From an uncultured Porphyromonadaceae bacterium (GTDB taxonomy: Bacteria; Bacteroidota; Bacteroidia; Bacteroidales; Muribaculaceae): DNA of 64,000 nt. Location: positions 1-64,000 of the forward strand of contig CAMWRW010000005.1 of NCBI GenBank assembly GCA_947176755.1, given 5' to 3'. Under the pieces are notes generated by a model. The model made no database searches. It was not told the DNA's origin and saw only the letters and a program-made list of their open reading frames with translations. Each line of letters opens with the position of its first letter. The first letter of the stretch is position 1. Below are positions 53,023 to 55,782 of this stretch, piece after piece. The position numbers were made by a program, and so were the translations under genes.

Positions 53023-54345
53023 TCATTTATAACGGGAATAAATCTCGACACCCATCTGTTTGGCTTTGCGGATGTCGCTTTCATTATTGGGATCCACACC
53101 ATATTTCGATAACGGAGGTACCACAACCCTTGTGCCGGGACGGATTCTATCCGGGTGCCCAAGAAAACTCTCGTTCTCTTTATAGATATAAGGCCAAAGA
53201 TTGTAGTTGCCATAGTGAGCTTTCGCCATTGTCGTCAGAAACCGTGTATGGCTGATTGTGTCATAGACAACTTGAGACTGTTTTGCTGTGGATTCCGCAT
53301 CAGATACCGGTGTAGGGACCTCCGGAGCATCTTCATAAACAGAAATAGCTGAATCTTCCGATGCCGATGACTTGATAACCTCGCTTTTCCCCGCTTCAAC
53401 AGCTAAGGAATCATCTACAACCGGGGTAGCTTCTGACTTGAACGCCGGGGCGGCAACATAATTGCGCATATAAATATAGACACCGAGCCCTACAAGACAG
53501 CACAAAGCCACGCCGGAAGCAAATCCGGAGAGGAACTTGTAAGTTCCGCGCTTTCTCTTCCTTTCCGGATACAATGATTGAGCAATCCTAACTTCTTCAT
53601 CTACTGATTCATCTTTCAAGTCAGAATCCGAAGCAACGGCTGAGACATCGTCAGATCCTGATTCCTGAGTTGACGCAGATTCAGAATACTCGTTATATAG
53701 CGAATACTCTTCATTACCGGAATTCGATTCAGTATATGTAGCGGAAGAAGAAGAATCATCCTGCGGCGTGGTATCAGACGAATATTGAACGTATAAATCC
53801 TGTGATACTTCCAACTCATCATCAGACGATTCAACAGTTTCCTCCTTATCATTATTGTCATCTGCGGTATTCTTGAGAAGCTCATCCGCGAAGTCGTCGA
53901 CACCTGTTTCCTCATCAATTTCATCCTGAATAAAATCCAGTTTGCCTCCCTCCACAGTGACAATATTTTCATCACCTGCAGAGTGAGCTTCTTCAGAAAT
54001 CGCAACCGAATCGGGGTCAAAGCCATCGTTAAGTTCAATGGTCTCGAACATATCGAATGGAGCGTTGATCTCCTCAGCCAATTCCTTTGACGGTGTAAAA
54101 AGAAGTTTTTTGTGAGCAGCTATTATTACTTCCTCTCCGGTGGAGACATCGACACTTTTCCTCTCCTCAACTTCGGCAACTTTGAACGTGCCGAGCTGGC
54201 GGATGCTGACTTCGCCTTCATCCAGAAGTTTAGACTGAAGAAGAGAAAAAAATTCCCTGATGAAATCTTCGGTCTCTTTACGCGTATCGCCCGTTGCATC
54301 CGCTAAACGGCCAATGATTCCGGGGAGAGTAATTTTTTCACTCAT
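53023..54345 (-). CDS. HU/IHF-like domain - acidic linker - TM helix - LysM domain fusion protein
   Basis: N-terminal ITLPGIIGRLADATGDTRKETEDFIREFFSLLQSKLLDEGEVSIRQLGTFKVAEVEERKSVDVSTGEEVIIAAHKKLLFTPSKELAEEIN (HU fold); RKRKR then YKFLSGFASGVALCCLVGLGVYIYM; C-terminal LTTMAKAHYGNYNLWPYIYKENESFLGHPDRIRPGTRVVVPP (LysM). The track start at 54351 is TTG; ATG at 54345 preferred. Confidence 0.93.
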   Translation of the reverse strand: MSEKITLPGIIGRLADATGDTRKETEDFIREFFSLLQSKLLDEGEVSIRQLGTFKVAEVEERKSVDVSTGEEVIIAAHKKLLFTPSKELAEEINAPFDMFETIELNDGFDPDSVAISEEAHSAGDENIVTVEGGKLDFIQDEIDEETGVDDFADELLKNTADDNNDKEETVESSDDELEVSQDLYVQYSSDTTPQDDSSSSATYTESNSGNEEYSLYNEYSESASTQESGSDDVSAVASDSDLKDESVDEEVRIAQSLYPERKRKRGTYKFLSGFASGVALCCLVGLGVYIYMRNYVAAPAFKSEATPVVDDSLAVEAGKSEVIKSSASEDSAISVYEDAPEVPTPVSDAESTAKQSQVVYDTISHTRFLTTMAKAHYGNYNLWPYIYKENESFLGHPDRIRPGTRVVVPPLSKYGVDPNNESDIRKAKQMGVEIYSRYK

Positions 54346-54347
54346 AA

Positions 54348-54641
54348 TCAAAGATTGTTTTCGTTATTGCGGATCTTTTGTTTTAACAGAGCCGAAGGCC
54401 TGAAGTTTAATGTCAACCGAGGGGGAATGAGGAGTCTTTTGCCTGTAGATGGATGGACCACTACCCTTTCGAGTCGCTTTCGGGGCTCAAAATTGCCAAA
54501 GGAGGGCACGGAGACCGCTGTATCGGATTTCACGGATTCAGAAACGAGATAGGCGAATTCGTCAATCAGAAACTCAATATCCTCTGCCGGCCTGTTCAGG
54601 CGCTTGCACAACTCGTCAATTATATCCTTATGATCTGCCAT
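54348..54641 (-). CDS. HU family DNA-binding protein (97 aa)
   Basis: DHKDIIDELCKRLNRPAEDIEFLIDEFAYLVSESVKSDTAVSVPSFGNFEPRKRLERVVVHPSTGKRLLIPPRLTLNFRPSALLKQKI. Confidence 0.9.
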   Translation of the reverse strand: MADHKDIIDELCKRLNRPAEDIEFLIDEFAYLVSESVKSDTAVSVPSFGNFEPRKRLERVVVHPSTGKRLLIPPRLTLNFRPSALLKQKIRNNENNL

Positions 54642-54703: not shown

Positions 54704-54735
54704 CAAAGATAATCCACTTCTTGAAACCATCCAAA
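54704..54735 (-). promoter_or_regulatory. Consensus Bacteroidetes promoter for the HU / HU-TM-LysM operon
   Basis: Minus strand TTTG (54732-54735), 20-bp gap, TATCTTTG (54704-54711). Confidence 0.75.
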
Positions 54736-54840: not shown

Positions 54841-55782
54841 TTATTTAAGTTTCAGAATCTGACCTGCTCGGATTTTATCGGCGTTCGATAGGCCGTTAAG
54901 ACGACGAAGTGTAGTTGCCGACATTCCATAGCTTCTTGCGATAGAGGAAAGCGTGTCACCTTTTTTCACCGTATAGCTTGCGGGATTGGCCGCAGCGGAC
55001 TTGTAGGGATTTTCTTTCTCCGATTTTGCCATCTGACGAGACGGGGCAAAATTGCGGGCCTTCGTGTAAGTTGACTTAGAGAACTGATATGTGTCAGTGT
55101 GAGTCGTTTGGTTAGCGAAGTCGAAGATAGCGGATGGATTGATTGCATACCCCATAAATCGGGTCTCGAAATGGAGGTGCGGTCCGGTGCTTCGACCCGT
55201 GCTTCCGCCAAGACCGATCGGATCTCCGGCTTTTACCACCTGATCAGGCTTAACAAGATGTTTATTAAGGTGACCATAAACCGTCTCAAGCCCGTTTGGG
55301 TGGCGGATAATCACATAGTTACCATAACCCTTGGCTTCATAATTCGTTAGACGGACTTTTCCGTCAAAAGCGGCATAAATAGTGTCGTTCGAACGGATCG
55401 CAAGATCGACTCCCTTGTGCATTCGGCCGAACTTAGCTCGATAGCCGTAGTTGGATGTGATCTTACCGGGACAGGGCATAAAGTAACCGGAAACATCAAT
55501 CGTCTTTGAGTTTGGCACATCAGCCTCTCTGAATGGATTAACCTGTTTGGAATTCCAACCTTCGGTATAGATGTCAAGCTCCGGCTCGATGTCGTCGATA
55601 AGATCGATAAAGGTGTTTTTTTCTACGAGCTTAATCTGGTCCTGACTTTTCGCCTGGCTTGCAAGGAGCTCCTTGTGAGCTTGAGAGTGAGGAGATTTGG
55701 AAGTGATTTTTTGGGCGCTCACGGGAAGGATTGCAAAAGCCGCAATCAAGCATGCGCCCAGTATATTTTTATATTCTATCAT
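54841..55782 (-). CDS. M23 metallopeptidase with C-terminal LysM domain
   Basis: YGYRAKFGRMHKGVDLAIRSNDTIYAAFDGKVRLTNYEAKGYGNYVIIRHPNGLETVYGHL..GSTGRSTGPHLHFETR; YTVKKGDTLSSIARSYGMSATTLRRLNGLSNADKIRAGQILKLK. Confidence 0.97.
   Translation of the reverse strand: MIEYKNILGACLIAAFAILPVSAQKITSKSPHSQAHKELLASQAKSQDQIKLVEKNTFIDLIDDIEPELDIYTEGWNSKQVNPFREADVPNSKTIDVSGYFMPCPGKITSNYGYRAKFGRMHKGVDLAIRSNDTIYAAFDGKVRLTNYEAKGYGNYVIIRHPNGLETVYGHLNKHLVKPDQVVKAGDPIGLGGSTGRSTGPHLHFETRFMGYAINPSAIFDFANQTTHTDTYQFSKSTYTKARNFAPSRQMAKSEKENPYKSAAANPASYTVKKGDTLSSIARSYGMSATTLRRLNGLSNADKIRAGQILKLK

Follow-up and report, generated by a model that had tools for sequence, protein, structure and literature searches.

In bacteria, links between the chromosome and the cell envelope usually pass through intermediaries, such as ParABS with polar hubs, Noc and SlmA. 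Bacteroidetes also have proteins in which HU-CCDC81_bac_1 and HU-CCDC81_bac_2 domains are joined to a membrane helix and a SPOR domain (families that we take to be Pfam PF18174, PF18175 and PF05036), and a role of HU-CCDC81 proteins in chromosome partition was reportedly predicted by Burroughs, Kaur, Zhang and Aravind in Cell Cycle in 2017. The unit described here, a gene for a stand-alone HU protein (the partner) followed by a gene for an HU-membrane helix-LysM fusion, shares with them a pair of HU domains, a helix in the membrane and a domain that binds peptidoglycan, but its HUs are of another clade and are split over two chains, and LysM takes the place of SPOR, a domain of the septal wall. 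As the HU-membrane-wall design is already known from these proteins, the HU-LysM unit is a variant of it rather than a new category. Against the HU-CCDC81-SPOR models, the fusion protein of the window (the whole 64,000-nt stretch of DNA that was analysed, from an uncultured Porphyromonadaceae bacterium) scored just 14.9 bits with PF18175, whose cut-off is 35, and matched neither PF18174 nor SPOR. A single protein with, in this sequence, HU-CCDC81_bac_1, HU-CCDC81_bac_2, a membrane helix and SPOR was observed in the same genome, outside the window (G000:C47, L037 1501-2478); its SPOR domain scores 20.7, narrowly short of the 21 cut-off, and the protein is a candidate for a second nucleoid-envelope link.

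Two divergent HU paralogues likewise work as a pair in the IHF alpha/beta and HU alpha/beta heterodimers, whereas in the pair of the window one subunit also bears membrane and wall domains. The LysM nearest to that of the fusion by sequence and fold belongs to Escherichia coli Kbp (YgaU), which, unlike the fusion, is a soluble, potassium-binding protein with a BON domain. HubP positions oriC and the LysM domain of FimV binds peptidoglycan; HubP/FimV resemble the fusion in their periplasmic LysM, single membrane helix and long acidic cytoplasmic region (PMC12918733). They differ from it in that LysM is N-terminal, a TPR/FimV domain stands where the fusion has HU, they act via client proteins and they belong to Proteobacteria; no C-terminal TPR/FimV domain was matched in the window fusion with Pfam or NCBIfam models. 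The HU_bacL clade comprises HU proteins of Bacteroidetes of about 238 aa with long charged C-terminal extensions (PMC5683647), and may include relatives of the fusion protein. LysM is never mentioned in the text of that paper, whose passage on the extensions says nothing of a membrane helix or of a partner gene (PMC5683647). In the library of papers searched, none on HU-LysM fusions was found.

An earlier note on the window had read one gene as a four-part fusion of an HU domain, an acidic linker, a basic stop with a hydrophobic helix and a LysM domain, and all four parts were recovered. The ORF at 53023..54345 on the minus strand is intact and encodes 440 aa. Its HU domain (residues 10-94, 54064..54318, minus strand) matches PF00216 with an E-value of 1.2e-19; the two HU domains of the window score 70.8 and 64.3 bits against a cut-off of 22.4, with matches spanning the whole domain, and their best NCBIfam matches are to IHF alpha, far below the IHF cut-offs. 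This domain is acidic overall in the window fusion, and its arm tip, RKSVDVSTGE, has V where P is expected; the conserved N-x-PF motif then follows the domain. An acidic linker of net charge -45 (residues 96-255, 53581..54060, minus strand), predicted to be disordered with pLDDT mostly <50, leads to the basic RKRKR (residues 262-266, 53548..53562, minus strand) on the inner flank of a single transmembrane helix (residues 271-293, 53467..53535, minus strand), the sole segment of the protein above the hydropathy threshold (KD 2.04). After a further linker, the protein ends in the LysM domain with a conserved extension (residues 356-440, 53026..53280, minus strand). The AlphaFold model has a confident HU domain (pLDDT ~95, with the HU fold and its beta arm), a helix at residues 268-297 and a confident LysM domain (97-98), with low-confidence linkers between them, and Foldseek searches with this model returned HU/IHF structures and Kbp.

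Profile searches for both domains had been proposed in the earlier note, and for LysM the outcome was mixed. The Pfam LysM family PF01476 had no match in the window fusion protein, and a relative from Dysgonomonas mossii reached 12.4 bits, under the cut-off of 20.9. As Pfam LysM misses the domain, the assignment was based on fold and NCBIfam evidence instead. The NCBIfam LysM/Kbp model NF008399 matches residues 347-411 with an E-value of 1.8e-7, which is below the family's own cut-off, and it is matched by 44 of 48 relatives at E<=0.01. The fusion C terminus is also matched by the PDB entry of Kbp, 7pvc (E 8.6e-4); in the AlphaFold model this domain is beta-alpha-alpha-beta, and Foldseek paired the LysM part with Kbp 8zex at probability 1.00. 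By predicted fold and by similarity to known LysM proteins, we consider it a divergent member of the LysM family.

The partner gene (54348..54641, minus strand) encodes a stand-alone HU/IHF-like protein of 97 aa that matches PF00216 with an E-value of 1.2e-17, takes the HU fold in its AlphaFold model (pLDDT 91.8) and was paired by Foldseek with the HU structure 5lvt (E 3e-8). Its arm tip, VVHPSTG, has the intercalating proline, and hydropathy gave no hydrophobic segment. The partner stop and the fusion ATG are 2 nt apart. A promoter upstream of the pair had been placed at 54704-54735, and this position does carry a motif match on the minus strand, TTTG-N20-TATCTTTG, which agrees with what we take to be the consensus of the Bacteroidetes primary sigma factor; the pattern has 5 matches in the window against 0.98 expected. 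A sigma-70-type promoter at the same place was rejected, since the sigma-70-type scan returned no site at 54704-54735 and the Bacteroidetes consensus fits.

The survey of architecture and synteny, likewise proposed earlier, placed the unit in no fewer than 18 Bacteroidales families and in one family of another class of Bacteroidota (f132), with constant pairing. Within the genus, the fusion was found in 22 of 24 other genomes, and completeness is 79% in the two that lack it; most of the Bacteroidales families sampled lack the module, which indicates that it is not universally needed. The family of the other class carries it in about 30 sampled genomes, with partner and fusion together in all nine loci inspected (L171-L179); HU arms of canonical type and a longer C-terminal tail beyond LysM were observed in these nine. 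At the thresholds used, no full-length matches were found elsewhere in that class or in the other sampled families of the phylum, where only stand-alone HU was seen, and a search of viral structures gave mostly ordinary viral HU and a few LysM. The conservation of the observed unit across families rules out chance.

Scanning named genomes yielded 80 loci, in Muribaculaceae, Dysgonomonas, Barnesiella, Coprobacter, Paludibacteraceae, Prevotella and Symbiothrix, chosen without regard to helix number, upstream partner or K/R bias. HU and LysM lie in one ORF in 76 of them, and the counts that follow use these 76. In every one, the gene immediately upstream of the fusion, in the same orientation, is the partner HU, and the two genes overlap in 59, by 1-17 nt (mostly 8, 4 or 11 nt), so that the coupled expression proposed for the window genes, with their 2-nt gap, gains considerable weight. 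Every fusion has exactly one membrane helix. The 15 residues before it hold on average 4.4 K/R against 1.7 after it, with more K/R before the helix in 70 fusions, equal numbers in three and fewer in three. From the single helix and the excess of K/R on the HU side, the HU domain is predicted to be cytoplasmic and the LysM domain periplasmic, as the earlier note had proposed. The acidic linker of these relatives averages 142 aa and 33% Asp/Glu; its range of 64 to 324 aa and its one third of Asp/Glu are what a spacer would be expected to show.

In trees of the HU domains, all sampled partner HUs form one group (100/100) and all sampled fusion HUs another (99/97), both apart from ordinary HUs, and the same two groups were obtained when the family of the other class was added (99/94 and 100/96). 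The alignment offers only a small number of columns, and the long branches restrict finer detail. Since the two groups hold across two classes, the partner-fusion pair most likely arose once, long ago, and stayed together. In two Bacteroidales families the locus has no stand-alone partner and the fusion protein itself carries two HU domains, as in-frame joins of a partner HU with the HU-TM-LysM fusion (L084 4563-6824 and L081 4989-6362). In L084, the partner and fusion models score 49.6 and 17.7 on the first HU, and 9.9 and 38.4 on the second; in L081 the corresponding values are 34.9 and 10.2, then 7.5 and 20.6. Such natural joining of neighbouring genes, partner first, strongly hints that the two proteins associate physically. 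Heterodimerisation, raised earlier from the gene arrangement, is supported further by the constant pairing, the matching gene trees and the in-frame HU-HU fusions, the last of which are strong indirect evidence that partner HU and fusion HU domains would form one heterodimer.

The two HUs differ in their predicted DNA-binding features. Partners have a mean net charge of +5.6 against -0.5 for fusion HUs, and of the 75 partner rows that have a residue at the arm tip, 74 show P. At the same site, Bacteroidales fusion HUs have V in 73 rows, I in three and a gap in one, and never P, while 76 of these 77 rows retain R62 and K80 of the fusion. The fusion HUs inspected in the other class have a canonical arm of NPQT/NPRT type with NP kept. 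Given the basic partners with their arm-tip P, the fusion R62 and K80 and these canonical arms, the pair seems capable of binding DNA, and in Bacteroidales the larger share of the contact likely comes from the partner. Three distant members (L076, L081 and L083) lack most of the arm, and DNA contact in them may be borne by the partner or lost. Two small HU-like proteins of the window genome (L033 and L034; G000:C9 and C11) were also observed, with arm tips RNIRQG and RNISRN in which the usual proline is absent.

The anatomy of the unit, its pairing and its age all have good support from the comparisons above, and the best reading of it, which we consider somewhat probable, is that an HU heterodimer anchored in membrane and wall ties nucleoid DNA to peptidoglycan. 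The partner, with its 97 aa, and the fusion HU domain would form an obligate cytoplasmic heterodimer, like IHF alpha and beta, in which the partner would give most of the positive charge and the arm-tip proline and the fusion, in Bacteroidales, an arm with valine. This heterodimer would bind DNA, probably with little sequence preference, and the flexible acidic linker would connect it through the one membrane helix to a periplasmic LysM seated on peptidoglycan, so that the resulting anchor between nucleoid and cell wall could help to position, organise or segregate the chromosome. The sequences show the domain make-up, the one helix, the positive-inside bias, the constant pairing, the single old origin and the natural HU-HU fusions; from these we infer the heterodimer in the cell, binding to DNA and to peptidoglycan and the role in nucleoid placement. 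Against the tether stand the acidic HU domain of the window fusion, the absence of an arm-tip proline from all Bacteroidales fusion HUs, the arms mostly missing in the three distant members, the divergence of a LysM that falls below the Pfam cut-off, a LysM-like tail in Prevotella sp. oral taxon 299 that the LysM model missed and the lack of the unit in most Bacteroidales families sampled. The window genome has ParB, so the tether would not be the sole segregation system. Put in its widest form, as a dedicated and ancient HU heterodimer, permanently anchored to peptidoglycan, that directly tethers nucleoid to wall across two classes of Bacteroidota alongside ParABS and a second, HU-membrane-SPOR tether at the division site, the proposal is tentative, at a little under an even chance.

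Some of the same observations can be read in another way, namely that the HU pair serves mostly for protein-protein contact, in which the fusion HU dimerises with its partner or binds other cytoplasmic proteins, that DNA binding is weak or lost and that the membrane protein works in the envelope, in connection with the MoxR-VWA (Bat) operon. The acidic HU of the window, the loss of the arm proline in Bacteroidales and the deletion of arms in some members would fit this, as would moxR-DUF58, which lies downstream in 36 of the 76 loci, usually with batA; but roughly half of the loci showed no such neighbourhood, the partners are basic and keep the arm-tip proline, R62 and K80 are almost invariant in the fusions and arms of canonical type occur in the fusion HUs of the other class, and we regard this reading as unlikely. 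HU/IHF proteins can also be architectural regulators, and the long flexible linker and single-pass topology would suit a membrane-bound transcription regulator whose HU acts on particular promoters under control of LysM-wall contact or of cleavage near the membrane. It is the less probable for a linker that varies freely in length and sequence, for neighbours among which those identified include no recurring regulator-type gene and for the fact that no conserved protease motif was noticed; we hold it to be improbable. Some HU-type proteins are known to lie on the cell surface and bind the DNA of biofilms, and an inverted topology would put HU outside on extracellular DNA and the LysM end inside or inert. 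With a single helix, no hydrophobic stretch before HU that could serve as a signal, K/R flanks on the HU side in 70 of 76 fusions and a window partner likewise free of hydrophobic segments, this arrangement is very improbable.

If the tether reading is true, an HU pair and a wall-binding domain on the two sides of the membrane would be combined in a single complex, giving a direct mechanical link. The carriers are gut bacteria in which chromosome positioning is little studied, and cultured ones exist for testing (Dysgonomonas mossii, Barnesiella and Coprobacter).

Regarding the gene neighbourhood, the gene next upstream in the window had been described as an M23 hydrolase with LysM, and the M23-LysM gene is real (54841-55782). 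The functional link implied by its position did not hold: an M23 hydrolase was found upstream in just five of the 76 loci and downstream in one, and it was rejected as a functional partner, being conserved only locally. More common neighbours are ftsY-rimO, upstream of the pair in 21 of the 76 loci, and the downstream moxR-DUF58 genes described above. Prevotella sp. oral taxon 299 (NC_022111.1, L031 3980-5359) has an HU-TM protein whose tail, VKSGQTLYSLSQRYLG, is LysM-like but divergent and whose end is rich in Lys; this tail had no match with the LysM model built in this analysis. Its partner and fusion genes lie downstream of ORFs of 320 aa and 431 aa that are ftsY/rimO-like by size and order alone.
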